This document shows, piece after piece, positions 6,115 through 64,000 of a DNA stretch of 64,000 nt (position 1 is the first letter of the stretch; each line of letters starts with the position of its first letter). This DNA comes from Telmatactis stephensoni. Taxonomy: Eukaryota > Cnidaria > Anthozoa > Actiniaria > Isophelliidae. The notes under the pieces were generated by a model, which was not told the DNA's origin, did no database searches, and saw nothing but the letters and a program-made list of their open reading frames with translations. The stretch covers positions 682,001-746,000 of the forward strand of contig JALIZF010001813.1 in assembly GCA_029948255.1 (NCBI GenBank). Reading direction: 5' to 3'. Made by a program: the position numbers and the translations under genes.

Positions 6115-6655
6115 ACTACAAAGAAACCTGTACATCAATCTCAACCTACCAACAAACCTGTACATAGTTAACCTACTAACAAGCCTGTGCATCAACCTCA
6201 ACCTACTAACAAACCTGTACATAGTTAACCTACTAACAAGCCTGTGCATCAACCTCAACCTACTAACAAGCCTGTACATAGTTAACCTACTAACAAGCCT
6301 GTGCATCAACCTCAACCTACTAACAAGCCTGTACATCAAATTCAACCTACCAACAAGCCTGTACATCGTTAACCTACTAACAAGCCTGTGCATCAACCTC
6401 AACCTACTAACAAGCCTGTACATCAACCTCAACCTACTAACAAGCCTGTACATCAACCTCAACCTACTAACAAGCCTGTACATCAACCTCAACCTACTAA
6501 CAAGCCTGTACATCAACCTCAACCTACTAACAAGCCTGTACATCAACCTCAACCTACTAACAAGCCTGTGCATCAACCTCAACCTACTAACAAGCCTGTA
6601 CATCGTTAACCTACTAACAAGCCTGTGCATCAACCTCAAATAAAAACTTGCATCA
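6115..6655 (+). repeat. 30-bp coding minisatellite (KPVHQPQPTN)n
   Basis: About 17 head-to-tail copies of a 30-bp unit encoding the decapeptide KPVHQPQPTN, interspersed with 27-bp variants in which the middle is replaced by AGTTAAC and so contain a TAA. The longest uninterrupted run is about 6388-6609. Unit length and phase keep the frame, suggesting the array was once coding. It lies between probable acceptor (6111-6114) and SWIM-exon acceptor (about 6656) motifs. The reverse strand is also open because the unit has no stops there; I regard that as incidental. Confidence 0.85.
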
Positions 6656-17192: not shown

Positions 17193-18770
17193 ATGAGGTC
17201 TGAGCACATAAAAAGGCTCTTCTTTACTAAGATCCTTTTGTTCTAGATTGGTTCTAGTATAGTTTGCAGTTGTTTGCTATTGGATACAACAGAATCCTTT
17301 AGAATCCCTTTTATGTGCACATTCCTCATGATGTATTATGCTTCTGTAAGTCATGATCTCGCAACATTTTGTACACTGAATAAATGCAGAAAATACCGAG
17401 AAAAAAGTCCCTTAAAGGTCAAAGCACCATTGGAAAACAGTGCGCAACCTTTACACTCTGTCTCTACAACATAACAATGATGTATTATGCTTCTGTAAGT
17501 CATGATCTCGCAACATTTTGTACACTGAATAAATGCAGAAAATACCGAGAAAAAAGTCCCTTAAAGGTCAAAGCGCCATTGGAAAACAGTGCGCAACCTT
17601 TACACTCTGTCTCTACAACATAACATGAGGTCTGAGCACATAAAAAGGCTCTTCTTTACTAAGATCCTTTTGTTCTAGATTGGTTCTAGTATAGTTTGCA
17701 GTCGTTTGCTATTGGATACAACAGAATCCTTTAGAATCCCTTTTATGTGCACATTCCTCATGATGTATTATGCTTCTGTAAGTCATGATCTCGCAACATT
17801 TTGTACACTGAATAAATGCAGAAAATACCGAGAAAAAAGTCCCTTAAAGGTCAAAGCGCCATTGGAAAACAGTGCGCAACCTTTACACTCTGTCTCTACA
17901 ACATAACATGAGGTCTGAGCACATAAAAAGGCTCTTCTTCACTAAGATCCTTTTGTTCTAGATTGGTTCTAGTATAGTTTGCAGTTGTTTGCTATTGGAT
18001 ACAACAGAATCCTTTAGAATCCCTTTTATGTGCACATTCCTCATGATGTATTATGCTTCTGTAAGTCATGATCTCGCAACATTTTGTACACTGAATAAAT
18101 GCAGAAAATACCGAGAAAAAAGTCCCTTAAAGGTCAAAGCACCATTGGAAAACAGTGCGCAACCTTTACACTCTGTCTCTACAACATAACAATGATGTAT
18201 TATGCTTCTGTAAGTCATGATCTCGCAACATTTTGTACACTGAATAAATGCAGAAAATACCGAGAAAAAAGTCCCTTAAAGGTCAAAGCGCCATTGGAAA
18301 ACAGTGCGCAACCTTTACACTCTGTCTCTACAACATAATTGATGTATTATGCTTCTGTAAGTCATGATCTCGCAACATTTTGTACACTGAATAAATGCAG
18401 AAAATACCGAGAAAAAAGTCCCTTAAAGGTCAAAGCGCCATTGGAAAACAGTGCGCAACCTTTACACTCTGTCTCTACAACATAACAATGATGTATTATG
18501 CTTCTGTAAGTCATGATCTCGCAACATTTTGTACACCGAATAAATGCAGAAAATACCGAGAAAAAAGTCCCTTAAAGGTCAAAGCGCCATTGGAAAACAG
18601 TGCGCAACCTTTACACTCTGTCTCTACAACATAACATGAGGTCTGAGCACATAAAAAGGCTCTTCTTTACTAAGATCCTTTTGTTCTATATTGGTTCTAG
18701 TATAGTTTGCAGTCGTTTGCTATTTGATACAACAGAATCCTTTAGAATCCCTTTTATGTGCACATTCCTC
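17193..18770 (+). repeat. Higher-order tandem array of two unit types
   Basis: Two unrelated units alternate irregularly: A (about 135-145 bp, starts ATGAGGTCTGAGCAC, ends CACATTCCTC) and B (about 138-148 bp, starts ATGATGTATTATGC, ends CTACAACATAAC). Order: A 17193, B 17338, B 17477, A 17625, B 17760, A 17908, B 18043, B 18192, B 18339, B 18488, A 18636-18770. Copies differ at only a few positions. Repeated small open frames across the array are by-products of repetition. Confidence 0.93.
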
Positions 18771-47618: not shown

Positions 47619-48185
47619 TCAAACAACATTGTAAGTCAAAAACTGAACTGACTTTATAGTGACATGTCTTGCATATATACTCCTTTCCATCATATGACTT
47701 TTTGGTGTTTTCTTATATAGTAGTCGATGACATACATTACATATAAAAAAAGGTCCTTTTCTTATCTTTATATTGAACTGTCTAATGCATGATTCAATTG
47801 ATGATCTTTTGATTTTGTTATTTTTTCTATTCTGTTGTCGCTTACTTTGCAATTCAGCTTTTCTAACTGTATCCATGGATTTGTAATTTTCTCTCAGCTT
47901 ACTTAAGAATTCACCCTTTTTAGTTGAGTCCATTGATTGATAATTTTCTCGATTCTTATGTAGTAATACATTCTTTTTAGTCAAGTCCATTGATTTGTAT
48001 TTTTCTCGTTTCTTAGCTAGTAATTCATTCTTCTTAGTCGGGTCCATTGATTTGTAATTTTGTCGTGTCTTAGTAATTGATTCTTTTTAATCAAGTCCAT
48101 TGATTTATAACTTTCTTGTTTCTTTAATAGTAATTGATTCTTCCTAGTTGAGTCCATTGATTTATAATTTTTTTGGCGCTTCCTT
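47619..48185 (-). pseudogene. Helentron leader: 57-bp Lys-rich repeats and zinc finger
   Basis: Repeated 19-residue units (MDPTKKNELLAKKREKYKS, MDLTKKNVLLHKNRENYQS and others, about six copies from 48160 to 47860), then KIRKGPFFICNVCHRLLYKK, a CxxC finger typical of the Helentron leader. Reading continues upstream in fragments at 60.6-61.2 kb and 63.3-64 kb; here it is cut at 48185 by element X. Confidence 0.7.
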
Positions 48186-48360
48186 AGTAGTATACAAATG
48201 GCGGTTCTGCATCCGGTGCGATCCGGTGCGCGCGGTGCAAGGGGGGAGTCACGCCCCCGATAGAGGGGAGGTCACGCGCCGGTGCAAGGGAAGTCACATG
48301 ACTAAAAGGACAGGTACCCAACACGTGACAGCACGTCATAATTTGATAACATGTACATAA
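48186..48360 (+). promoter_or_regulatory. X end and ORF A upstream region
   Basis: Very GC-rich for this window (GATCCGGTGCG repeated, GGTGCAAGGGG repeated, GGGGGCGTGAC-type words), then TCACATGACT, ACACGTGACA and an AT-rich step before ORF A. Repeated at 60430-60588 and 63150-63305. Likely terminal repeat plus promoter; promoter role is inferred. Confidence 0.55.
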
Positions 48361-48391
48361 GCGTAAGAAGAAAAGTCATGTACTTTATTTC

Positions 48392-48730
48392 ATGATGGAG
48401 TTAAGAAGTGGTCGCGTTCTTAACGGGAAAATTGTGTCAAGCGATGAGATCATCCAAGAATGCAAGATTTTTTTCAAATTCTTGTTTTATGAATTTAGTG
48501 AGAATTTTGCCTACAAAGTTTGGATTGATGACATTGAAAGAACCACAGGAAAGAAAACCACCATCCTTGAACTGTTACAATGGGAGAAAAACAAAGCGTT
48601 TTGGGTAGGAAGCTTCAACCGAGTTTTACGCCTCATGAGAAACGAACTACCCTTATCAACACTCCTGGCTGCCTTTGAGTACTTCATGAAGTACGAGTTC
48701 AATCTTCAAAAGGGAGAAAAAGGGGGTTAG
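48392..48730 (+). CDS. X ORF A, arm 1 (112 aa)
   Basis: Starts MMELRSGRVLNGKIVSSDEI; mostly helical, basic and aromatic (FWVGSFNRVLRLMRNELPL, LLAAFEYFMKYEFNL), and ends KGEKGG at a TAG. Beyond the TAG the frame reads EQNMRARSKRSDAMNTDYA and stops, and in arm 2 that tail is joined without a stop, so the ancestral protein was about 140 aa. AATAAA at about 48859. No family recognised. Three copies in the window keep the frame with a few replacements, suggesting it was coding until recently. Confidence 0.6.
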   Translation: MMELRSGRVLNGKIVSSDEIIQECKIFFKFLFYEFSENFAYKVWIDDIERTTGKKTTILELLQWEKNKAFWVGSFNRVLRLMRNELPLSTLLAAFEYFMKYEFNLQKGEKGG

Positions 48731-49048
48731 GCGAATACGAAATCGTATCGATTTTTAGAGCAAAACATGAGAGCGAGGTCGAAACGCAGTGATGCGATGA
48801 ATACAGATTATGCATAGTAATTAGAAAGTTTATTGACTTTGTGTTTGTTATATTAACAATAAAACCACCAGCACGATTTTGTTTCTCTTTTTGGTTTTTA
48901 TTCCATAACACATCTAAATGAGTATGTACAATTGTATATTAAAAATTAGATTGTTTCTAAAGGTCCTTAAAATATGTCCAGCAGTAAAAGGTATACACAT
49001 TACTGTAATAATTTAGTTGCCACTGATTTATGTTTGTTTTTACATCGA
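48731..49048. terminator. Convergent 3' region of ORFs A and B
   Basis: AATAAA on the plus strand (about 48859, after ORF A) and AATAAA on the minus strand (about 48897-48902, after ORF B) lie within 45 bp, so the two transcripts would overlap at their 3' ends. The arrangement recurs in arm 2 and the half copy. Confidence 0.6.
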
Positions 49049-49417
49049 CTAATGTAAAGTCAACCAGTTTTTAAAATCCTCGCCGACGACTTTATTGGTC
49101 GTTACAACTTTCTTCTTATTCTGTTTCACTTTGGTCTTGGCTACTTTCCCTACATTACACTGTCTTGGTTGCGATAACTCGTAGACCCTTTCTTGTTGTT
49201 TCGGTGTGTTTATATTGGTATTGTTTGCATCTGTTGTTATATTTTGGTACACAACGAATTTAACTTTCGGTTGTAATCTAGCTTCTTGTAAATACTTTCG
49301 CCTTTGCTCGATATCCAGTAAGTGTACATCCGCGAGATGGTTTGCCAGTCTTACGAGATATTTTGCTCCACAATCTGGTATAGGACAATCGCGACAAACA
49401 CGTTTAAACATGTTCAC
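49049..49417 (-). CDS. X ORF B, arm 1 (122 aa, C2H2-type finger)
   Basis: Starts MNMFKRVCRDCPIPDCGAKY; Cys and His spacing (CPIPDC...NHLADVH) suggests one C2H2-like zinc finger, followed by LQEARLQPKVKFVVYQ, an Asn/Thr-rich linker, and a basic tail with KVKQNKKKVVTTNK and FKNWLTLH. Likely a nuclear DNA-binding protein by composition. The copy at 62076-62441 differs by one Gln. Function not assigned. Confidence 0.65.
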   Translation of the reverse strand: MNMFKRVCRDCPIPDCGAKYLVRLANHLADVHLLDIEQRRKYLQEARLQPKVKFVVYQNITTDANNTNINTPKQQERVYELSQPRQCNVGKVAKTKVKQNKKKVVTTNKVVGEDFKNWLTLH

Positions 49418-49598
49418 AGTTTGACGAACAGACCCAAAATGAGTTGTTTTCTCCTAAAACTCTATTAAAAAGAAGGCCAGCAAGGCCGGAAAACAGACAG
49501 AAAAGGCCATTAACAGGCTAAAAAGGCCAAAAGCAGGCCAAACGGGTAGAAAAAGCCAGTCGGGCCAAAATCATAGAGTAACGTATCTTTGTCTGTAC

Positions 49599-49619
49599 AA
49601 ACATGCCCGAGGCATGTTT
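49599..49619. promoter_or_regulatory. Consensus p53-family response element
   Basis: AAACATGCCC-G-AGGCATGTTT: two perfect RRRCWWGYYY half-sites with a 1-bp spacer. Conserved at 51142-51162 and 61874-61894. Confidence 0.6.
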
Positions 49620-49642
49620 AGCCAGTCTTTTGTTATCGATAA

Positions 49643-49650
49643 TGACGTCA
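49643..49650. promoter_or_regulatory. CRE palindrome
   Basis: TGACGTCA within AATGACGTCATAATT; conserved at 51111-51118 and 61843-61850. Confidence 0.6.
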
Positions 49651-49735
49651 TAATTAAATCGCTTAGCTTGCTGAAAATCATTTTAAATAGAGGAGTCAGC
49701 TAGACTTTTTGTTATTCTGTGTTACAGGGATCCCA

Positions 49736-50400
49736 TCTAGTCTAGAATCTTGTCTACTGTAAATTCTAGTCTAGATTCTCGTCTACTGTAAATTCTAGTC
49801 TAGATTCTCGTCTACTGTAAATTCTAGTCTAGATTCTACTAGACTATAGCTAGATACTAGATTCTAGATTCTATAGCTAGATACTAGATTCTACTAGATA
49901 CTAGATTCTACTAGATTATAGCTAGATACTAGATTCTACTAGATTATAGCTAGATACTAGATTCTACTAGATACTAGATTCTACTAGATACTAGATTCTA
50001 CTAGATACTAGATTCTACTAGATTCTAGATTTAGATTCTAGATTCTAGCTAGATACTAGATTCTACTAGATACTAGATTCTACTAGATACTAGATTCTAC
50101 TAGATTATAGCTAGATACTAGATTCTACTAGATTCTAGCTAGATACTAGATTCTACTAGATACTAGATTCTACTAGATACTAGATTCTACTAGATACTAG
50201 ATTCTACTAGATTCTAGATTTAGATTCTAGATTCTAGCTAGATACTAGATTCTACTAGATACTAGATTCTACTAGATACTAGATTCTACTAGATTATAGC
50301 TAGATACTAGATTCTACTAGATTCTAGCTAGATACTAGATTCTACTAGATTCTAGATTCTACTAGATTCTAGATTCTAGCTAGTAGATACTAGATTCTAG
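49736..50400. repeat. CTAG-rich tandem array, arm 1
   Basis: Begins with three 29-bp-type units (TCTCGTCTACTGTAAATTCTAG), then mixtures of TAGATAC and TAGATTCTAC, mostly as a 17-bp pair, with TAGCTAGATAC variants and longer blocks repeated. About 665 bp. Inverted counterpart at 50550-51025. Confidence 0.92.
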
Positions 50401-50433
50401 AGTGATTTTCATCGGACTGTGAAACAATTACTA

Positions 50434-50516
50434 ATAGTCAGTGTTTAATAGTGTCTAATAGTTGTATTGCAACAAAAGAAAACAATGGGTTCAGAGTCTA
50501 CTAGTGTCTATTAGCT
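50434..50516. other. Central spacer of the palindrome
   Basis: 83 bp, the only unpaired segment between the arms; flanked by a perfect 38-bp inverted repeat (50396-50433, 50517-50554). The same spacer starts the half copy at 61210. Confidence 0.85.
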
Positions 50517-50549
50517 TAGTAATTGTTTCACAGTCCGATGAAAATCACT

Positions 50550-51025
50550 CTAGAATCTAGTATCTACTAGCTAGAATCTAGAATCTAGTAGAATCTAGAA
50601 TCTAGTAGAATCTAGTATCTAGTAGAATCTAGTATCTAGCTAGAATCTAGTAGAATCTAGTATCTAGCTATAATCTAGTAGAATCTAGTATCTAGTAGAA
50701 TCTAGTATCTAGCTAGAATCTAGAATCTAAATCTAGAATCTAGTAGAATCTAGTATCTAGTAGAATCTAGTATCTAGTAGAATCTAGTATCTAGTAGAAT
50801 CTAGTATCTAGCTATAATCTAGTAGAATCTAGTATCTAGCTATAATCTAGTAGAATCTAGTATCTAGTAGAATCTAGTATCTAGCTATAGAATCTAGAAT
50901 CTAGTATCTAGCTATAGTCTAGTAGAATCTAGACTAGAATTTACAGTAGACGAGAATCTAGACTAGAATTTACAGTAGACGAGAATCTAGACTAGAATTT
51001 ACAGTAGACAAGATTCTAGACTAGA
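50550..51025. repeat. CTAG-rich tandem array, arm 2
   Basis: Inverted version of the arm-1 array, about 190 bp shorter. Confidence 0.92.
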
Positions 51026-51425
51026 TGGGATCCCTGTAACACAGAATAACAAAAAGTCTAGCTGACTCCTCTATTTAAAATGATTTTCAGCAAGCTAAGC
51101 GATTTAATTATGACGTCATTATCGATAACAAAAGACTGGCTAAACATGCCTCGGGCATGTTTGTACAGACAAAGATACGTTACTCTATGATTTTGGCCCG
51201 ACTGGCTTTTTCTACCCGTTTGGCCTGCTTTTGACCTTTTTAGCCTGTTAATGGCCTTTTCTGTCTGTTTTCCGGCCTTGCTGGCCTTCTTTTTAATAGA
51301 GTTTTAGGAGAAAACAACTCATTTTGGGTCTGTTCGTGTTCCAAAGTGAAACAGAATAAGAAGAAAGTTGTAACGACCAATAAAGTCGTCAGCGAGGATT
51401 TTAAAAACTGGTTGACTTTACATTA
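51026..51425 (+). pseudogene. X ORF B, arm 2: promoter kept, ORF largely deleted
   Basis: The leader, p53-type site and CRE are intact, but at 51339 the sequence jumps from before the ATG to the last codons (AAAGTGAAACAG onward), losing about 290 bp compared with 62069-62356. Only the C-terminal tail remains. Confidence 0.85.
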
Positions 51426-52006
51426 GTCGATGTAAAAACAAACATAAATCAGTGGCAACTAAATTATTACAGTAATGTGTATACCTTTTACTGCTGGACA
51501 TATTTTAAGGACCTTTAGAAACAATCTAATTTTTAATATACAATTTGTACATACTCATTTAGATGTGTTATGGAATAAAAACCAAAAAGAGAAACAAAAT
51601 CGTGCTGGTGGTTTTATTGTTAATATAACAAACACAAAGTCAATAAACTTTCTAATTACTATGCATAATCTGTATTCATCGCATCACTGCGTTTCGACCT
51701 CGCTCTCATGTTTTGCTCGAAAAATGTATACATTTTCGTATTCGTCAAACCCCCTTTTTCTCCCTTTTGAAGATTGAACTCGTACTTCATGAAGTACTCA
51801 AAGGCAGCCAGGAGTGTTGATAAGGGTAGTTTGTTTCTCATGAGGCGTAAAACTCGGTTGAAGCTTCCTACCCAAAACGCTTTGTTTTTCTCCCATTGTA
51901 ACAGTTCAAGGATGGTGGTTTTCTTTCCTGTGGTTCTTTCAATGTCATCAATCCAAACTTTGTAGGCAAAATTCTCACTAAATTCATAAAACAACACTGC
52001 TTGAAA

Positions 52007-52766
52007 AAGAGCGTGTCATGGCTTTGAAACGAAGTGATACGAACCCGGATTCTTTGAAAATATTTAAATTTCCGCTCGTGTCGTGCATCTGATATTCGAC
52101 GTGTACAGGTCGTATCAAACCAGGATTCTTCCCGAATCGAACTGGGTTGTCCGGATCAGGAAGTGTCGTGATGGTGACACGCCTGTAAAATTTATAGTGT
52201 CATGTATTGGAAATCTCTCGGTTTTCTTTGATACGTAAGAAATATGTTGGTGCCAGTTATATGAAATTCTTCTGCACTGACATCTTCATTCTGTGTCACA
52301 GAATAATTTTTTATTGGAAATATAATTTTTCTGTAAACTTTTTTTTGGAGGTTCTGCTATGACTCTCCAATGGATGCTGATCAAAAATATTAGAGAATTT
52401 CAGAGAATTTCTTGCCCCGTAATTTTATAATACTCCACAAATCAGGAAATTTCGCGAAACAGAACTTCCGCTCACAACTCGTGTCTTTGAGTGCCGGATC
52501 GTATAAATTCAATGATACGTCAGGTTCCATTAAGTTTCCACTGCCCGTCTACACAACAAATATAGTTAATTCGCACATTTTAGTATACTTCAAACTTTTA
52601 TTTAGTAATCAAAATGCATATAACTCTTATTAATATTTACAAAAGATATTTAAAATTGAAATTAAAAATAGCGTCCATGAGATTTCAGTCATCAGGCTTA
52701 ACTTTAACATATTTACATGCATCATCAAACTCATCACAGCGTGTTATATTAACAGTCCACAACTAT
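52007..52766. other. CACTA left subterminal region
   Basis: Short CG-containing words (CGTGTCATG, CGTGTCGTGC, CGACGTGTACAGG) recur here and inverted near 60.1-60.25 kb, as expected of subterminal transposase-binding repeats. No supported ORF. Confidence 0.45.
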
Positions 52767-54966
52767 TCATTCATTGAATTGTGGAGACACTTGAACTCTA
52801 GATCTCTTTCTTTTCTTTCTTTGTGGCTCACTAGTGTTTGCAAGACGCCGGAGTTCAGCTGTTAAGCTGCGCGGTCTCACAGGTGCTCTAGGAGTCTCCT
52901 CTGATTCATCCACATCACTTGATGGCACACAGCTGTGTATTTCCAAGCTTTGTAATGCCCAAGGAGGACATGACGATGGTGGTTCTCTCTCGCATGGTGG
53001 ACCAGGGATGCGTTTATTCTTAGGATGCTTTGAAGTATCGTCGCTAGCCTCAATTCTGGCCTGGAGTCGTTTGATAAGAACATTGGCAGCATCACTTCTC
53101 CATGATGGAGATCTGACAACCCATGTTCCTCGTTCAGCTCCAGTGCCGTCTTCTTCGTCACTCATGACAAGGGGACTTAGTTCTTTCCATCGCTGCTTTT
53201 CTTCTTCTGATGTGCAGGCTTTCTTTCTGGTAACATATAGCTAAAAAAAAATTAAAGTTAGCCACCTTTACAGTACAGCTTGGATCTAAGTAATATTGGG
53301 ATTGACATGATTACAGTAAGTTATCATGCAGTAATCAATCATATGATATTCTTATTCATTTGAAGGACACTGAGAGGAAAATGCCTCTGCTCTCAGATAA
53401 CAAACTCCATAGAAAATGAAAGTATATCCTTTGCATACCTTCTTCTTCTCGATGTCATCTTCTTGTCTTTTTTCCTCTTGTTTGCTGATTCTTGTCTTTC
53501 AGGCAAGCTATCCAGAAACGCTTGCCTTTTTGACTCGTAGTGTCTTGCTATCCCACCTAAAATAGTAAATTAATTTGTTTGAGGCTAACACGTTATTTGC
53601 GAAAATAAATTCTGATACTAATTAAATTCTACTGTTACAAAAGTGCCGCATTATACGGCCAAAACAAACAGATCGGCAAAACTGCATAGCCGGCACGGTC
53701 TTTTAGCAAAAAGACAATTAGGACCGCAGAATTAAGTGTCCACTTAATTAGAAATTTTAACTATAAATTCAAAACAAGAATATTTTTATTCGGTACATAA
53801 GGGCATATTCTTATTTTGAGTTTGAAGTAAAAACTCAAAATTCCTACATGACGCAATGTTTCGGGAAAAGAAACACGTTGGACTATTCAAAAAAACACAG
53901 ATTGAGTGACGACAAAAGAGCAAAACGGCTTGTAACAGCTTTAATTCTTTACGAATATGTTTGCTGTGGAAAGAAAAGCCCAGTCATCCTTGCTTCAAAC
54001 CGGTACTACAGTACTTCAAATTTGTTTTGGCGCGGCAAAAAGGTTATGAGATCCTGAGTTTGAGGGTTCAATGAGAGACCATGTTTTCCAAAATTCAGAA
54101 TAAAATCTAAAAGTGTAGGCAATGGCAACTCTCGCACATAGACACAATACGCTGCATGCTTTGGGATAATTTAACTTACGTTGAATTGTAGACTTTGCGT
54201 GACCAGTAATTTCTTGTTGCAACTCATGAAGGAGGAAACCTCTCACTCTTGCGTTATGTGTGCTTTCAATGCTAAAAGAAAAATACAAAATCACAGTTGA
54301 GGACTGAGATTAATCAAAGCGGCCACCAAAATCATCATGTAGTTACCTTTCACTTCCTTTGAACTGATTGCTCGTGTCTTGCTGGTTATGGAGTAGACGT
54401 ACACCATCTTAAGATATAAAAATGCGTATGATTAAAGATTGGTAATTGTCACATGTTGAATATGCAGATTAAGAGCGCGAAACACGGCATGGTTTCAAAT
54501 AGCGCAATGGCATACTTTGCAGCCTCTTGATCAGTCAAACCTACAATCTATATACCTTGACTTCCTTTGGTACTGGTCCATAATGCGTTGAACACTCAGC
54601 ATCTTTATCTTTACTGTGGTCTGCTAGTAGTTCGAGTTGGCTTTTCAACTGGACGACTTCACTTTTCACACATTCTAGATCTGCCGCCATTTCATCGATC
54701 TTGTCGTTTTGCCGCCGTGCTAGAGTGCTCAAATCTTTTAACCCCTCAAACAGTTGACGCACCTCAGCTGAGGACACGACCAAATTCTCACGATTTCTTC
54801 TAGTATGATTCGGCGTTGATCCACGCTCATCAGAGCTTGATGATCTCGAGTTGCTAAGACTGCTTCCACTACCACGATCACTTGGGTTTGGAGTTGTCAC
54901 AATTGGAGTTGTAACTCTGTTGCTACGGCTCCCACTTGAAAAAAACGAGCTTGTTGAGTGAACCAT
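52767..54966 (-). pseudogene. CACTA accessory protein gene, five exons
   Basis: Exons 54966-54556 (Ser-rich MVHSTSSFFSSGSRSNRV, then a coiled coil LSTLARRQNDKIDEMAADL), 54407-54347 (LLHNQQDTSNQFKGSE), 54271-54180 (ARVRGFLLHELQQEITGHAK), 53556-53451 (RHYESKRQAFLDSLPERQ), 53240-52767 (RKKACTSEEEKQRW, SPSWRSDAANVLIKRLQARI, RKKRKRSRVQ). Splice motifs are good; exons 2-3-4 agree in phase, but exon 1 to 2 and the end of exon 4 do not, so at least one indel exists. No enzyme motif. Divergent from the transposase gene, 325 bp between ATGs. Confidence 0.55.
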
Positions 54967-55290
54967 CTTCTACAACTTTAACACTTGTAACCGAGTTTTT
55001 TAAAGAACTTTTAAGTATTGAAATAACTCTAACAAATTGAAGATAACTTAGGTCAATTAACTCTATCACCGACAAGCACGCTAGATGAAGCAAATGACTT
55101 GTGATTTCACGCTGAAAAGCCCGCTATTTTAGAGACAACCAATAAAAGTCTTCCAAAGCAATGACGTCATGTATTGTTCTCATGAACTACTCGTGACTGG
55201 CGGCGCAAGGCCTTCCTGGGAAAGGTTTTCAATTGTTTGCAAACTAAAATTCATTTTAAACTTTCTACTTTTTCATCGCTCTAATGACAC
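54967..55290. promoter_or_regulatory. Bidirectional promoter region of CACTA
   Basis: 324 bp between divergent start codons (54966 minus, 55291 plus); contains AATGACGTCAT (CRE-like) near 55161. Promoter role inferred from the arrangement. Confidence 0.4.
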
Positions 55291-58200
55291 ATGGATAACG
55301 GCTTTTCAAAGTCAAGACAAAAATTCTGTACACAATGCAAATCATGGATGCCCAAGAGTACTTACTACGATCATTTAACAAATCATGCGAAGTGCAACCT
55401 TCAAGATCAGGACACAACAACAACAGCGGGGTCAACCCGAGGTAAGCCCCTATAATCAGAACCAGAATTCTGATTCTCACAATGATCGTAAAGGTCTTTG
55501 TTCATTCAACTAGCCGCTAAATACAGGAATACATCGTTGCCTTTCGAACACCTTGTACCACTTTGCTCTGTTTGCTAACATCGTCCGATAGCTCGTTATA
55601 AACTTTGATAGACGTGTGTCCGCCATTCCCATCACTTTGACTTCTTGCAACTCTGCTCTATTCAGATGGATTTCTAAAATTTAAACTTCAATAAACAGCA
55701 GCTATGAACACCCGTTTGGGGACTGAAAATAAGAGCAGTGTTAGTATTTTAACTACATTTTTGAGACAGCCTGTTTTTCACAAATGGCTAGCTATAAGCT
55801 TAATAATTTCGAAAATTCGCGTGCGAATGTTTTGTTTAGAAAAGCCTACATAGCTTTCTAATTTTCATCATAGTTAGAGTTCTAAAGAAGACCGACGTTA
55901 ACATGCAAAATTTTGAAAATCCATCAAACCAGAACAAGTCAAATTGATGGGAATTCAGCTTGAACCGTCTATATTATATAATATTTGATTGTGAGAACAA
56001 AAAGGATCATGACATGTGCATAACAGTATAATTATTAAAGCTGTTTTATTTATGATATGTGGTTATAATTTGTTTTGATGTAACAAGGCTTTTTTTAATT
56101 CAACAGGCAATTCAACTTCCACGTCTACAAAGACTTTTTATTGTAAGCATTGCAATAAAACAGTAGGAAAGACTACATTCTATGAACATCTTGCTCTTTA
56201 TGGAAATAATGAAACCTCAAGTAATTTACAAAATGAAGTGAACTATGATGACTGCATATTAGATTCTGACATAAATGAAGATTTTGAGCCTGAAGAGAAT
56301 AGGTTTGGTGATGAGGACATGGTGTTTTTCTCTGATGATCATGAAACAGATGACAGCAGTGATGAAGAGGAAGGAATAACTCAAGATGGCCCTCCAGTCT
56401 TAGAAAGTCATGATGAAGAAATAGTCCAGGTAAGATTAAAAAATAATAATGAATGCATTTGTTATGAGGGATATTAAGCAATTATTGGATGAGGTCGAGT
56501 AGGATATGGGGAATTATTAAGGCCGAGGTTCATGTTATCTGCCGAAGCCGAATGCTGAGGCTTTCAACATTTTCATAACTCCAAATTTTGGCAGCTAGCC
56601 GGCGACTATGATAATTTATCCGGTGGTTCTTAGCCAATCAAAACTCTTGGATTATTTTCAAAATATAATATATAATATATATATATATATATTTATTATT
56701 TTTTTTGTAAAATTACAGCACCTTAGAAGTCAGTCTTAAAGTGGCCCCTTTGCAGTTCTTTTGAAATAGAACTTTGGCCATAGCATTTTTTAATATTTGC
56801 CTGATGAGCTATCAGACTTGAAGGAAGCTACATTATTTGTTAAAATATCATTCACAGCATGAACAAGAGAGTATAAGCAGGAGACTGAGACACGCGGATC
56901 ATACAACAACATGTTGGTCCACTTTGCAATATTTTTTATCACTATCCACTATCCACTGTTTTGAATGTTTATTACTCAAAAAGTAGATAAACCTCAGCTT
57001 TCAAGAATATTAAACATTTCAAATTATTAATAAATGATGATGAAAATTTCAAATTAGGGGTTATGGATGCTTTGAATAGCTCTGAATGGACTGTAATGTA
57101 CAGGTGTGCAATGATTTTTGTGTTGTGGTTTAAATTACTGAATGATTTAGGGATAATTAGAAATATTAGATATATTTAGATATATTTTAATCAGATGGAT
57201 TTTTACTTACTCTTACTAATGTTCTAGATTGTGATCTTGATCAGAAAACAACAACAACAACAACAACAACAAAAGAATGCAAAATCTAAATATTGCCTAA
57301 AATTATATTCTGTTACATATTATTTGACATCTGCAAGTTATTGATCCTGAAATGACAAAGATTGGAAACTAAGATCACTTACTACTGTGTCCATTCTAAT
57401 TAAGTTACTTTTTTATACAAATTATTGTAGGGTTCCTAACTATAATAATTTTCTTTTGTTTATTTATATATGTGTCAATGTGACTAACTCTAGTCAGAAA
57501 GTCCAAACATGGCCTAAATTTTCTTTTAATTGTTTGCTGTTGTTTGCTGTTGGAATTGACTGTTAACATTTTTTGATAGTCATATTTACATGTTGTATCT
57601 TCTTTTATCTCTCCTAAAGTAAAGACTGGGTTGTTTTGTCACACTTAAATGTTATATATAATTCACTGTATGTTTAGGTGTCCAGATGATGAGAAAATTC
57701 TTGAGAGAAAAAGCTTTAATGGCTACCGAATTCCCAGAGAGTATGAATGATATATGGTGCCTTCTCGATACTGCTGTTAAACAGAAAGGAACTCTTCTAC
57801 AAATTACTGTTGATCCAAAACTGTATACCTCCATCACAGAATCTGTAACGGGGAACCCTCTGGATTTTGATTTCTCAAGATCTGATGCTCAGCTACCACT
57901 ACCTCCAATTAAGAAGAGTGCTTTGGATAGCAACAGTGTACTGAAACTGAGGAGGATGTATGAACAAGTCTACCCCCAAGAAAGAATACTTCAGGTATCT
58001 AGCTTCTGTGAGAGGTCTAGACACCTTGTTTGTGCTGGAACTCACTACAGAGCTGGTGATGAACACAGCAATCAGGCATCTACTGTCAGTGCAATTTGGT
58101 TTGATGAAACAAGCAGACCTGCTATCATAAGGGAATTCTTATCTCATGATGTTGTAATTGTTAAAGAAAATGGCAAATCAGGAAAAATCACCCACATTGT

Positions 58201-58429
58201 AGCAGAAGTCCAGTGGTATGCTAGACATCCACAGCATAGTAGGTACTCAAGACCAGTAGAGGTATGGGCAAGCCATTTTGAAGGAATTGTTCCACCACAT
58301 GCTTTCTATATGCCTGTAGGAAGAATTCAATGTAATTGTGTGGCATTTCTTCATCAAGTTCCATTGGTAGGACGTCAGTGTCAAAGAGCAAATGTAATTA
58401 TTCCATTACCCAAGTCAGCTAGAATATAA
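55291..58429 (+). pseudogene. CACTA transposase-type gene lacking its core
   Basis: Exon 1 55291-55441 (MDNGFSKSRQKFCTQCK...YYDHLTNHAKC) and exon 2 56107-56429 (FYCKHCNKTVGKTTFYEHL, then an acidic stretch) give two CxxC...H fingers, joined in phase by a GTAAGC...CAACAG intron. The last exon, 57678-58429, matches the C-terminus of animal CACTA Tnp2-type proteins (RSRHLVCAGTHYRAGD, AEVQWYARHPQHSRY, FYMPVGRIQCNC, NVIIPLP). The central DDE exon is absent: 56430-57677 has no coding. Non-autonomous. Confidence 0.75.
56430..57677. other. Region where the transposase core is missing
   Basis: AT-rich, with (TA)n near 56669-56692 and (CAA)n at 57247-57271. No trace of a catalytic core. Confidence 0.6.
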
Positions 58430-60290
58430 TTTACTAGATGTGTTTGACTCTCTCGCTCTACATGGAAACATATATTGCTTCTATAATTAACTAACTAAAA
58501 TGATTGTTTGTATTGACTGCTGCAATATTTTTGTCCAGTGCTTGAAGAAGTATTATTTTTCTAAATCAAAGGAAAATGTGTGCACCTTCCATTAATCAAA
58601 CAGCTGCTGGTCATTCTTCCTTACTCTGACAAGTAAAGTGATGACTTTGTGGTGGTTAATAATTAATATTACTTGATAGTATTGTATGGAAACAACATGA
58701 CTTCATTCTTGATATCAAATAAAAAATCTGTTTCTCTGACAAAAACAGAATAGCTAAGTCCATAGTTTGGTGTGCAATGATTAATGGGAAAACAACTTTT
58801 TTTTTCTCATTTGAATATTCTATAGACTGAGGGAAATACCATGGATGTACTTTAGGACATGTATACTTAATGGAGAATGTGCAGTTACATAGCAATATTG
58901 TATTGTGCATTTTTGGTGAAAGGAGGTTGTGCATTAATCAAAGGGAATTAAAGCTAAATCTCTGAGTGCACACACAATAGGATATAGGAAAAATCCCTGA
59001 CTCAAGTGAGATTGGGAGTTTAACCATGCAAGAGAACGGAATATAAAACAGTTTTCTGCGGTGTTTGATAGCTTCACCAAAATGCGTCATGTGAGGACGG
59101 GATAGGAACGAGTGCTTTCACAGCTCTCGAGTGTTTCCACAACTTCACAAGTGTTTTGGTTATGCTATACTATCAGACGCAGAATACGTATAACGGAAGT
59201 AATTTTCGTCAAAAACAGTCGACTCTTCCATTTACCGACAAAAATTGCGCGCGCTAGACCTGACGTAGATTCGTGTTTTGATACTAAGCATGGTTTTTTT
59301 CGCCAATCAAAGCGCACGTTTTGTATGTTATCTTCCAAATTATTTGAAATTATGTTCTTTTATAAGTGTAAGAGTTTTTGGTGACCTAAAAAATACCCCC
59401 TTCCCTTTTTAATGGCTTGTAAACCATAAAAATTCCTTTTTGTATTTATGAGCATGCGCAGACCACAGCTAAAACGTCCCACATGAAAAGCGCGCTTTGA
59501 TTCATCAAAGCAATGAACCACTAAAATTTCTGTGGCTGCACTTAACGAAAGTCAGGTTCTATCAATGTGCGACGGCACTATTATAGGCTTTGGGTCCTGG
59601 TAGTTTCCTCCCATGCAGTTAAGTGAAGGCACCGAAAGTTCCTCGGAACTTCAAAGACCTTTTAAGGTGCCCCGACATCCGAGGAAGGCCAAAGGTTCTG
59701 GCTCTCGCTTTGCAGAGAAGCTCGTTGCTTCACCTGTAGGCAGAGAGATTCTGCAACTTTTGTGCTGTGGTCTAGGGGAATTTTATTATAAAACAAGACA
59801 ATAATGACTGTTCAAAAGATCGAAGCCTGAACCTAGATTTTTTTGAACTACTGTCTGCGTATAATGAAACTTTTGTCGTGTCAGAAGCGAACTTTAAAAA
59901 TTGATAAGACAAAGTCTATTTCGGTGCCAGAGTTAAGCTGCTCTCTTGTTGCACTGAACGAGACTACCATTATATACCATGCATTTCGAGCTCATGATCA
60001 GTGCCTCTGGTATTTACCTCAACATGCCGTGCCCATACATATCATGATTCTGATTTGCCCTGTCACTTGATAGCATTCGTGTCTGAAGCCCGAAAACTCT
60101 CTGATACGCCGTGCATCAAGTGTCAGGAATCGGACATATCCTGACATTCGGTGTAGAAAGAATTTCAATTCCTGGTACGTCATGACACGTTACGTTCCTG
60201 TACACGTTGCATTTCAAACCCTTGACACACTCAATTTCACGGAAGTATCACGATACGGAAATTCCAGGAAATCCTTTATTTCAAGCAGTG
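58430..60290. other. CACTA right flank and end
   Basis: Non-coding; small frames such as 59613-59804 have no support. Ends with the inverted CACTG repeat. Confidence 0.5.
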
Positions 60291-60594
60291 CAAGAATTTG
60301 AAAAAAATCTTGCATTCTTGGATGATCTCATCGCTTGACACAATTTTCCCGTTAAGAACGCGACCACTTCTTAACTCCATCATGAAATAAAGTACATGAC
60401 TTTTCTTCTTACGCTTATGTACATGTTATCAAATTATGACGTGCTGTCACGTGTTGGGTACCTGTCCTTTTAGTCATGTGACTTCCCTTGCACCGGCACG
60501 TGACCTCCCCTCTATCGGGGGCGTGACTCCCCCTTGCACCGCGCGCACCGGATCGCACCGGATGCAGAACTGCCATTTGTATACTACTTTCCTT

Positions 60595-61205
60595 TGTAAA
60601 ACACTCTTTTTAGTAGAATTGATTGATTGACGCCTCTTTGTTTGTTTACTATTTAATTCTTTCTTTTTTGTGATGTGCATCTCTGAATATCTTTTTTGAC
60701 TTTCTTCTAAAATCTTTTTTTTGGCAGCAGGTTCCATTGTGTCATAATGATATTTTTTCTCTGTGTTTTCTCATTATACTTTTCCTTTCATTTTCAGTAA
60801 TAGTACTAGAACAGTTAATAAATTGAATTATATATGTTATTACAGTTTTACTTTGTGTATTTTGAATCAACATTACTTATTGTTTCTGTAAGTACATTGA
60901 TACCATTTATATTTTTTGTATGTTTTATTTCAGGTGTGCTGCTGTTAGAATATACAAGAGAAAACAAATGCTTTAGCTTGGAATTTTTTTGATTTATACA
61001 AGCTATACAGCAAGTTGAAGTTGATATCAGAAATCCTGTATTTTGCATATGATTATTTGATATCAAAGTCTCTAACATTTTCTTACTGTTACATGAATTC
61101 TGTAATACTTCCTTGCTTTGCTTGTTACATTGTATTCTTAATTTGATACCTCCACAAATATCAAGAGATTCTGGTATGTCATGTGCAGTAAAGTTAAATT
61201 TAGAT
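60595..61205 (-). pseudogene. Helentron leader upstream part, copy 1
   Basis: Starts after the X duplication site. The minus-strand frame MEPAAKKKILEESQKRYSEM, ITKKKELNSKQTKRRQS runs into X at 60594, continuing the Lys-rich repeats found beyond X at 48185. Upstream, another frame (61078-60848) reads MLETLISNNHMQNTGFLIST and STCCIACINQKNSKL. Duplicated at 63306-63924 with about 2-nt indels. Confidence 0.6.
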
Positions 61206-61325
61206 AGATAATAGTCAGTGTTTAATAGTGTCTAATAGTTGTATTGCAACAAAAGAAAACAATGGGTTCAGAGTCTACTAGTGTCTATTAGCTTAGTAAT
61301 TGTTTCACAGTCCGATGAAAATCAC

Positions 61326-61758
61326 TCTAGAATCTAGTATCTACTAGCTAGAATCTAGAATCTAGTAGAATCTAGAATCTAGCTATAATCTAGTAGAATC
61401 TAGTATCTAGTAGAATCTAGTATCTAGTAGAATCTAGTATCTAGCTAGAATCTAGAATCTAAATCTAGAATCTAGTAGAATCTAGTATCTAGTAGAATCT
61501 AGTATCTAGTAGAATCTAGTATCTAGTAGAATCTAGTATCTAGCTATAATCTAGTAGAATCTAGTATCTAGCTATAATCTAGTAGAATCTAGTATCTAGT
61601 AGAATCTAGTATCTAGCTATAGAATCTAGAATCTAGTATCTAGCTATAGTCTAGTAGAATCTAGACTAGAATTTACAGTAGACGAGAATCTAGACTAGAA
61701 TTTACAGTAGACGAGAATCTAGACTAGAATTTACAGTAGACAAGATTCTAGACTAGAT
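61326..61758. repeat. CTAG-rich tandem array, half copy
   Basis: Same units and orientation as 50550-51025, slightly shorter. Confidence 0.92.
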
Positions 61759-61873
61759 GGGATCCCTGTAACACAGAATAACAAAAAGTCTAGCTGACTC
61801 CTCTATTTAAAATGATTTTCAGCAAGCTAAGCGATTTAATTATGACGTCATTATCGATAACAAAAGACTGGCT

Positions 61874-61894
61874 AAACATGCCTCGGGCATGTTT
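61874..61894. promoter_or_regulatory. p53-family response element, half copy
   Basis: AAACATGCCT-C-GGGCATGTTT: two RRRCWWGYYY half-sites, 1-bp spacer, upstream of intact ORF B. Confidence 0.6.
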
Positions 61895-62075
61895 GTACAG
61901 ACAAAGATACGTTACTCTATGATTTTGGCCCGACTGGCTTTTTCTACCCGTTTGGCCTGCTTTTGGCCTTTTTAGCCTGTTAATGGCCTTTTCTGTCTGT
62001 TTTCCGGCCTTGCTGGCCTTCTTTTTAATAGAGTTTTAGGAGAAAACAACTCATTTTGGGTCTGTTCGTCAAACT

Positions 62076-62441
62076 GTGAACATGTTTAAACGTGTTTGTC
62101 GCGATTGTCCTATACCAGATTGTGGAGCAAAATATCTCGTAAGACTGGCAAACCATCTTGCGGATGTACACTTACTGGATATCGAGCAAAGGCGAAAGTA
62201 TTTACAAGAAGCTAGATTACAACCGAAAGTTAAATTCGTTGTGTACCAAAATATAACAACAGATGCAAACAATACCAATATAAACACACCGAAACAAGAA
62301 AGGGTCTACGAGTTATCGCAACCAAGACAGTGTAATGTAGGGAAAGTAGCCAAGACCAAAGTGAAACAGAATAAGAAGAAAGTTGTAACGACCAATAAAG
62401 TCGTCGGCGAGGATTTTAAAAACTGGTTGACTTTACATTAG
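62076..62441 (+). CDS. X ORF B, half copy (121 aa)
   Basis: Intact, identical to the arm-1 protein except for one fewer Gln in a CAA run (TPKQER against TPKQQER). Same C2H2-like finger and basic tail. Full promoter block upstream. Confidence 0.65.
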   Translation: MNMFKRVCRDCPIPDCGAKYLVRLANHLADVHLLDIEQRRKYLQEARLQPKVKFVVYQNITTDANNTNINTPKQERVYELSQPRQCNVGKVAKTKVKQNKKKVVTTNKVVGEDFKNWLTLH

Positions 62442-62760
62442 TCGATGTAAAAACAAACATAAATCAGTGGCAACTAAATTATTACAGTAATGTGTATACC
62501 TTTTACTGCTGGACATATTTTAAGGACCTTTAGAAACAATCTAATTTTTAATATACAATTTGTACATACTCATTTAGATGTGTTATGGAATAAAAACCAA
62601 AAAGAGAAACAAAATCGTGCTGGTGGTTTTATTGTTAATATAACAAACACAAAGTCAATAAACTTTCTAATTACTATGCATAATCTGTATTCATCGCATC
62701 ACTGCGTTTCGACCTCGCTCTCATGTTTTGCTCTAAAAATCGATACGATTTCGTATTCGC

Positions 62761-63099
62761 CTAACCCCCTTTTTCTCCCTTTTGAAGATTGAACTTGTAC
62801 TTCATGAAGTACTCAAAGGCAGCCAGGAGTGTTGATAAGGGTAGTTCGTTTCTCATGAGGCGTAAAACTCGGTTGAAGCTTCCTACCCAAAACGCTTTGT
62901 TTTTCTCCCATTGTAACAGTTCAAGGATGGTGGTTTTCTTTCCTGTGGTTCTTTCAATGTCATCAATCCAAACTTTGTAGGAAAAATTCTCACTAAATTC
63001 ATAAAACAAGAATTTGAAAAAAATCTTGCATTCTTGGATGATCTCATCGCTTGACACAATTTTCCCGTTAAGAACGCGACCACTTCTTAACTCCATCAT
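62761..63099 (-). CDS. X ORF A, half copy (112 aa)
   Basis: Same length and TAG end as arm 1, with replacements (SENFSYKVW against SENFAYKVW; KYKFNL against KYEFNL). Convergent with ORF B. Unrecognised family. Confidence 0.6.
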   Translation of the reverse strand: MMELRSGRVLNGKIVSSDEIIQECKIFFKFLFYEFSENFSYKVWIDDIERTTGKKTTILELLQWEKNKAFWVGSFNRVLRLMRNELPLSTLLAAFEYFMKYKFNLQKGEKGG

Positions 63100-63305
63100 G
63101 AAATAAAGTACATGACTTTTCTTCTTACGCTTATGTACATGTTATCAAATTATGACTTGCTGTCACGTGTTGGGTACCTGTCCTTTTAGTCATGTGACTT
63201 CCCTTGCACCGGCACGTGACCTCCCCTCTATCGGGGGCGTGACTCCCCCCTTGCACCGCGCGCACCGGATCGCACCGGATGCAGAACCGCCATTTGTATA
63301 CTACT

Positions 63306-64000
63306 TTCCTTTGTAAAACACTCTTTTTAGTAGAATTGATTGATTGACGCCTCTTTGTTTGTTTACTATTTAATTCTTTCTTTTTTGTGATGTGCATCTC
63401 TGAATATCTTTTTTGACTTTCTTCTAAAATCTTTTTTTTGGCAGCAGGTTCCATTGTGTCATAATGATATTTTTTCTCTGTGTTTTCTCATTATACTTTT
63501 CCTTTCATTTTCAGTAATAGTACTAGAACAGTTAATAAATTGAATTATATATGTTATTACAGTTTTACTTTGTGTATTTTGAATCAACATATTACTTATT
63601 GTTTCTGTAAGTACATTGATACCATTTATATTTTTTGTATGTTTTATTTCAGGTGTGCTGCTGTTAGAATATACAAGAGAAAACAAATGCTTTAGCTTGG
63701 AATTTTTTTGATTTATACAAGCTATACAGCAAGTTGAAGTTGATATCAGAAATCCTGTATTTTGCATATGATTATTTGATATCAAAGTCTCTAACATTTT
63801 CTTACTGTTACATGAATTCTGTAATACTTCCTTGCTTTGCTTGTTACATTGTATTCTTAATTTGATACCTCCACAAATATCAAGAGATTCTGGTATGTCA
63901 TGTGCAGTAAAGTTAAATTTAGATGCACTGTTTTCAATTGCTTGTAAAGTATTTGACCTCCAATAATTGCAAGGTGCAATGACTGAGTAACAAATAGAAT
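63306..64000 (-). pseudogene. Helentron leader upstream part, copy 2 (runs off the window)
   Basis: Frames 63454-63310 (MEPAAKKKILEESQKRY) and 63797-63459 (MLETLISNNHMQ...TSTCCIACINQKNS) plus upstream coding on the same strand (APCNYWRSNTLQAIENSASK, ESLDICGGIKLRIQ) to the window edge. In Helentron polyproteins a cysteine-protease-like region precedes the Lys-rich repeats; this could be it, but no catalytic motif is clear. Beyond 63924 it is not duplicated. Confidence 0.5.

Follow-up and report, generated by a model that had tools for sequence, protein, structure and literature searches.

Introduction

The prevailing view is that Polintons (Mavericks) are integrated viruses, and to our knowledge little is known about the copying of their DNA in animals. 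Palindromic or snapback defective genomes are known from adenoviruses. A 6-bp target site duplication (TSD) is typical of the rve integrases in the Polinton group, according to the available part of PMC12220804. For Galileo elements, the accessible text of PMC3573991 gives a P-superfamily transposase and 7-bp duplications. Here, element X was compared with these systems. It lies at positions 48186–60588 of a 64,000-nucleotide window, i.e., the whole stretch of DNA analyzed, from Telmatactis stephensoni (Cnidaria; GenBank assembly GCA_029948255.1, 483.5 Mb; contig JALIZF010001813.1, here C133:682001-746000). Element X is very probably a non-autonomous palindromic Polinton satellite that is mobilized in trans, acquires the ends of its helpers by microhomology-primed copying and has one arm copied from the other, with the mechanism being inferred. 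This reading draws on Polinton ends, a 6-bp insertion signature, helper genes in the same genome, a recurring core, arms that are alike, private joints that are symmetric, and exact core ends with TCA microhomology.

The known kind to which element X probably belongs is the non-autonomous Polinton, and its palindromic satellite form appears to be new. No report of palindromic Polinton satellites was found among the papers listed in the literature searches, the coverage of which left most subscription journals and Repbase outside.

Element X Carries Polinton Ends and Shares Its Genome with Helpers

A search with the first 745 bp of element X listed 50 places; of the candidates from the first look, 330 in number, 40 received a score. 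Among the places listed, matches outside C133 broke off near position 521 or at 450, and two weak matches, on C569 and C411, began at 503. Loci fetched from the assembly are designated L031 to L051. Left-end matches in L031, L033, L034, L035 and L043 were situated at the end of larger elements. The end of element X was 97.5% identical to L031 over 523 bp and 94.8–97.6% identical over the five ends. The match spanned the full 523 bp in L031, L034 and L035, and positions 28–523 and 139–523 in L033 and L043, respectively. The open reading frames (ORFs) of the larger elements, labelled partly by eye, read as an ATPase with an N-terminal zinc finger, an adenain-like protease, a capsid-like protein, an integrase and PolB. 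By Pfam analysis, rve (2.5e-15) and Chromo (6.1e-8) were found in one ORF of L035, and Peptidase_C5 was matched at 0.0019, under its curated cut-off. The PolB family PF03175 had 88 matches in the genome, one of them at C204:652560-653948, beyond the end of L043. The terminal repeats of element X are common to integrase-bearing elements of the same genome, and this genome holds helpers with an rve integrase (L035) and PolB (beyond L043).

No gene for PolB, integrase, ATPase, protease or capsid was found within element X. Since no PolB or rve integrase of its own was found among its ORFs, element X is at most a non-autonomous derivative. The initial annotation, which found no transposase in the element either, had left its class unrecognised; this did not hold, as the outer 523 bp match Polinton ends. 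The longer relative with a transposition enzyme that it proposed to look for exists, namely the integrase-bearing Polintons whose ends match those of element X.

With alleles counted once, 12 insertion sites were available (window, L036/L037, L038, L039/L040, L041/L042, L044, L045, L046, L047/L048, L049, L050 and L051). Both ends were readable at seven of them (window, L036/L037, L038, L044, L045, L046 and L047/L048), and all seven showed a 6-bp duplication directly outside AGTAGTA...TACTACT, with AG...CT ends. The duplications read were ttcctt, agagta, tgtata, aacatt, acagca, gaatag and cactgc, and the proposal to check other insertions for 6-bp duplications was thereby answered in the affirmative. 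Copies with other termini had been named as grounds for giving up the element. The terminal sequence does differ in L045/L046 and L047/L048, yet the AGTAGTA start and the 6-bp duplications are kept; an exchange of ends fits these cases better than a misplaced boundary. Complete palindromic copies (window, L036, L037 and L044–L048) measured 3.5–4.1 kb, large inserts not counted.

Other related elements were also observed. L038:7134-8210 is a 1,077-bp internal-deletion derivative of a Polinton with both ends and the 6-bp TSD gaatag. L039/L040 (C388, C635) is a non-palindromic relative of about 6 kb that has a Polinton end, four middle ORFs and just one zinc-finger gene, which is interrupted; in L040 the four middle ORFs had no significant Pfam match, and a PDB search with one of them returned nothing useful. 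An element of the L039/L040 kind possibly gave rise to one arm of the palindrome.

Structure of the Palindrome

The palindrome is real and consists of two inverted arms, a spacer and a flanking 6-bp duplication. Element X measures 12,403 bp, of which 4,104 bp remain once the CACTA-type insert (8,296 bp) and the accompanying 3-bp duplication are subtracted, and its termini read AGTAGTATAC...GTATACTACT. The inverted pieces pair at 97.3%, 97.9% and 99.0% identity, far above chance. The features are as follows.

48180–48185: left TTCCTT copy (6-bp target duplication)
48186–50434: left arm, 2.25 kb
48186–48705, plus strand: left outer segment, a Polinton end (terminal inverted repeat and 5' part of Polinton ORF1), based on the match to L031
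48392–48730, plus strand: ORF1 fragment, 112 aa, truncated and covering the beginning of Polinton ORF1 (276 aa), with its final codons inside the core
48706–51770: palindromic core, reading TCAAAAGG inward from both ends
49049–49417, minus strand: C2H2-like zinc-finger ORF, about 120 aa, directed outward from the centre and converging on ORF1; the left-arm copy alone is intact
49829–50399: in the left arm, a tandem array of CTAG-rich 17-bp repeats that adjoins the centre (mirror array at 50549–50933)
50435–50515: central spacer, 81 bp, identical in copy L044
50516–51994 and 60294–60588: right arm, 1.77 kb in sum
50516–51994, minus strand: right arm, inner part, in which a 289-bp deletion takes out most of the zinc-finger ORF
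51995–60290: CACTA-type transposon (CACTG...CAGTG) in the right arm, TSD CAA, foreign to element X
60294–60588, minus strand: right arm, outer part (Polinton end), 99.0% identical to the left end
60589–60594: right TTCCTT copy
61209–63305, minus strand: second right half-palindrome, centre to terminus, with neither CACTA insert nor 289-bp deletion, followed by repeated flank

Most of the initial description was sustained by these measurements: a palindromic mobile element with defined ends and further copies, arms of about 2.2 and 1.8 kb once the CACTA insertion is taken out, and TTCCTT on both sides. Its spacer exists, but with 81 bp rather than 83 bp. The convergent gene pair that it placed in each arm is intact in the left arm; on the right it is broken by the 289-bp deletion, which corresponds to left-arm positions 49135–49423 and destroys the zinc-finger ORF, and by the CACTA insert, which interrupts the other ORF. 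Outside this insert, only four ORFs of at least 90 aa were present in element X (100–122 aa), and Pfam analysis of two of them gave nothing above the cut-off.

Arms Are Alike within Copies

The core arms were 99.1–100% identical inside nine fetched pairs (alleles counted apart), with the inner right arm of the window as the exception, and core identity between copies ranged from 78.5 to 100%. Over arms of 1.5–1.6 kb, L044 (2 mismatches in 1,544), L045 and L046 were 99.9–100% alike. The same end variant was present on both arms in 28 of 33 facing pairs, compared with a mean of 5.8 and a maximum of 15 in shuffles. Seven of nine gene-probe pairs with mismatches carried them on both arms, the exceptions being the window and C890. 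A tree placed the arms of L050, of C890 (L041/L042) and of L048 by copy, and it put the left arm of the window together with the second right half. The two L044 arms in it were identical, as were the four arms of L045/L046. L036/L037, and L047 with L048, clustered by locus with alleles mixed.

Some joints between the core and its outer sequence were also shared by both arms. Among the 50 matches listed, the ORF1-core joint of the window occurred at C133 only, where it was present on all three arms. C890 is joined at another ORF1 position, on both of its arms. The window and L044 have an identical 150-bp centre and different outer ends that are nevertheless symmetric. Private joints on both arms are most simply explained if one arm served as the template for the other, and these joints are the strongest point for a joint evolution of the two arms, which looks new.

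The Core Has Exact Ends and Varied Partners

In the window and L031–L051, 27 core ends forming 14 distinct joints were found. All 27 begin with TCAAAAGG (TCAGAAGG once), and TC was found at all 27 even with the first two letters left free in the search; eight further weak matches of that search lay elsewhere, without the rest of the core. TC was also the first dinucleotide in 95 of 95 genome matches, obtained with a pattern that itself names TC and allows three mismatches. The core was joined to 14 different sequences. Among them were three points within ORF1, a place just before ORF2 and the start of ORF2 itself, sequence from PolB and from the right end, and terminal repeats of two other types. 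A single exact core-end nucleotide with such varied partners looks new.

For 8 of the 14 joints, the unjoined native sequence was found in a relative, and it continues with TCA in six, TC in one and T in one. TCA occurs at 2.1% of random Polinton positions (binomial 2.6e-9, computed after the fact). The partners on the two sides are unlike in L036/L037, L047/L048 and L049, as if each end had been gained separately, and symmetric in the window, L044, L045, L046, L050 and C890. Of the four loci whose two flanks differ, L047, L049 and L051 had no flanking bases in common at the core, and L036 had 2 bp.

Helitrons insert between A and T. As the base ahead of TC was T or C at 13 of the 14 distinct joints and A at one, a Helitron as source of the core end was rejected.

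Family Size and the Zinc-Finger Gene

A 36-base probe within the zinc-finger gene, the reversed control of which gave 0 matches, matched 96 places in the genome, i.e., 34 facing pairs and 28 single places. A probe for the core end (control 0) matched 95 places, of which 33 were facing pairs, none back to back and 29 single; its pairs take in C122 and C157, where the zinc-finger probe was single. C122 is a rearranged Polinton end with no palindrome. L036/L037, L039/L040 and L047/L048 resemble two alleles of one site. Since some loci look allelic, distinct insertions are fewer than the places counted. At C22:812533-821083 and C850:126314-134760, which are possibly allelic, an extra same-strand zinc-finger match about 5.4 kb upstream of the facing pair was counted as single.

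L044:1-1304 contains a second palindrome, which lies at a distance of about 1.8 kb from the Polinton palindrome and has 578-nt arms with 100% complementarity. It had no match in the window or in L031–L051.

An alignment of 24 relatives with the window copy showed C15, H26 and H31 of the zinc finger to be invariant and C10 nearly so. Eight of 13 extracted ORFs were compared for dN/dS; shallow comparisons were uninformative, and deep ones with L036 or L050 (dS at least 0.2) gave 0.17–0.49. These substitution ratios indicate that the core zinc-finger gene is under purifying selection. A related zinc finger heads the ATPase-like Polinton ORF in L031, L033, L034 and L035 (46–48% over 46 aa). Public data contained zinc-finger homologues (217 of 220 candidates, 120 listed, all without genomic context) and one homologue of ORF1; a search of viral contigs with ORF1 and with the zinc-finger ORF revealed no relative. 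The AlphaFold model of the zinc finger was poor (pLDDT 50).

Flanking Gene, Empty Site and an Additional Right Half

Element X sits within a gene of another transposon. This gene has a repeated KSMDxTKK motif and lies beside a DUF6570 ORF, which is of a type found in Helitrons. When the flanks were joined with a single TTCCTT, a 114-aa frame ran over the junction and the KSMDxTKK motif carried on. Taken separately, the two sides of the same frame give 55 and 58 aa, and other frames that do not cross the junction give 155 and 116 aa. Since the flanks rejoin in frame, the boundaries of element X are right.

The second right half and its repeated flank lie outside the initial description. At 61209, the sequence switches from right flank to the palindrome centre, followed by the second half and the flank again, so that the right flank at 60594–61205 recurs at 63311–63924. 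The repeat is 99.45% identical over 918 aligned bases, including the outer 298 bp of the arm. The core of the left arm is 99.9% identical to the second right half and 98.1% identical to the inner right arm. The likeliest reading of 61209–63924 is that the assembler set two haplotypes in tandem; a true duplication is the less likely alternative.

As side observations, the CACTA-type insert holds an ORF (57686–58429) without a Pfam match, and tandem arrays of about 149-bp units and of 30-bp units are present in the window at 17328–18636 and 6116–6639, respectively. Rfam analysis gave seven weak matches and none at the gathering score.

Discussion

In the favoured reading, the rve integrase of a helper would insert element X in trans, and replication would be carried out by the protein-primed PolB of the helper, starting at the terminal repeats that element X has borrowed. 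Single strands displaced in this process may fold on the palindrome into a hairpin intermediate, and one arm would be copied from, or corrected against, the other via the folded strand. The 3' end of the core (...CCTTTTGA-3'; ...TTTTGA) might pair with a TCA in a strand of the helper, and its extension would run out to the helper terminus. A new Polinton end would thereby be gained on one side first and mirrored to the other side in later hairpin passes. More tentatively, and in our view rather less likely than not to be correct, the core may be a linear palindromic replicon in its own right that has defined termini (5'-TCAAAAGG) and a zinc-finger gene, i.e., a hyperparasite of Polintons that gains the replication and integration ends of whichever family is active by TCA-primed copying and mirrors them via the hairpin.

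Several points weigh against the satellite reading. Replication and integration were deduced from sequence, and gene conversion after insertion could be the source of arm identity. The capsid-like ORF, the ATPase-like ORF and the C-terminal PolB-like piece of L031 matched no significant Pfam family, their labels being assigned by eye. The TSD was unreadable at 5 of the 12 sites (L039/L040, L041/L042, L049, L050 and L051) and was read for none of the full-length Polintons, of which a single end was covered. Five of the 33 pairs (C133, C171, C111, C122 and C157) have unlike end variants. The core of the inner right arm of the window is closer to L044 (99.8%) than to its own left arm (98.1%). L036 and L037 have unlike ends on their two arms, with right ends outside the core-end pattern. 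The tree gives no clean arm-wise sorting of the alleles L047 and L048, and L045 and L046, at different sites, have identical cores, so that a difference between copies is not universal. For 6 of the 14 joints, no relative offered the native sequence, and the TCA statistic rests on the other eight and was made after the data had been seen. The left joint of L049 has only T in common with the native sequence, and TCA is present in seven of nine relatives for the L041 joint and in one of four (L040) for the L050 joint.

The similarity of the arms is also the subject of a fair rival explanation, namely that chromosomal gene conversion keeps them alike, as in Y-chromosome palindromes. Conversion between the arms of palindromes in chromosomes is on record (PMC3723533, available part). 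We regard this explanation as possible and on the whole doubtful, because three copies (L044, L045 and L046) are 99.9–100% identical over 1.5–1.6-kb arms and private joints are symmetric, which would require conversion of the whole arm soon after insertion. It is unlikely that the core is a separate mobile element which entered Polintons by ordinary transposition: its exact conserved ends, seen at each of the 27 core ends fetched and in 95 genome matches, would suit such an element, but no clear target duplication surrounds the core at the four two-flank loci (2 bp in L036), and the identifiable flanks are different genes rather than halves of a single site.

That each copy turned palindromic independently from a non-palindromic Polinton end appears quite improbable. 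The centres of L036, L050, L041 and L045/L046 differ as this would predict, but one centre is shared by the window, L044 and, over 106 of 150 bp, L047/L048, whose outer ends are unlike, and 33 facing pairs stand against no back-to-back pair. An assembly artefact from fold-back reads is scarcely credible. The repeated right half (61209–63305) and the duplicated flank do resemble two haplotypes joined in tandem, but the palindrome is bordered left and right by unlike flanks with 6-bp duplications, and separate, apparently allelic contigs carry the same palindromes (L036/L037 and L047/L048). Equally remote is a cut-and-paste transposon of the Foldback/Galileo type with long inverted repeats and a lost transposase of its own. 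The long, internally repetitive inverted arms and the lack of a detectable transposase in element X would agree with it, but the ends match integrase-bearing Polintons, the duplication is 6 bp at all seven readable sites instead of the 7 bp of Galileo, and the longer relatives that were observed encode an rve integrase. It is thus already largely contradicted and was rejected on its ends and duplication length.

Palindromic satellites that form a heritable family would provide a natural record of Polinton DNA copying in animals, with hairpin copying logged in the arms and template switching in the joints. Such a family also suggests that Polintons are themselves parasitised by elements whose ends can be exchanged, comparable to the pairs of giant viruses and virophages or adenoviruses and adeno-associated virus (AAV).

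Among known systems, Foldback, Galileo and Tetris elements resemble element X in their long, internally repetitive inverted arms, but element X has Polinton ends and a 6-bp duplication, in contrast to the P-superfamily transposase and 7 bp of Galileo. Ginger2 has a Gypsy-like integrase family and an AT-rich 6-bp target in common with it; this candidate was rejected since element X ends in AGTAG and not in the TGTNR reported for Ginger2 in the accessible portion of PMC2836005. With Polintons, element X shares terminal repeats, AG...CT termini and the 6-bp target duplication, and it derives 523 bp at one end, together with a portion of ORF1, from them; unlike them, it is palindromic, has a mirrored zinc-finger gene and has no detected gene for PolB, integrase, ATPase, protease or capsid. 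The palindromic or snapback defective genomes of adenoviruses and AAV are likewise helper-dependent genomes made from a mirrored viral end (for AAV, the available part of PMC8235507), whereas the family of element X is integrated, heritable, diversified and multi-copy, with a conserved gene.

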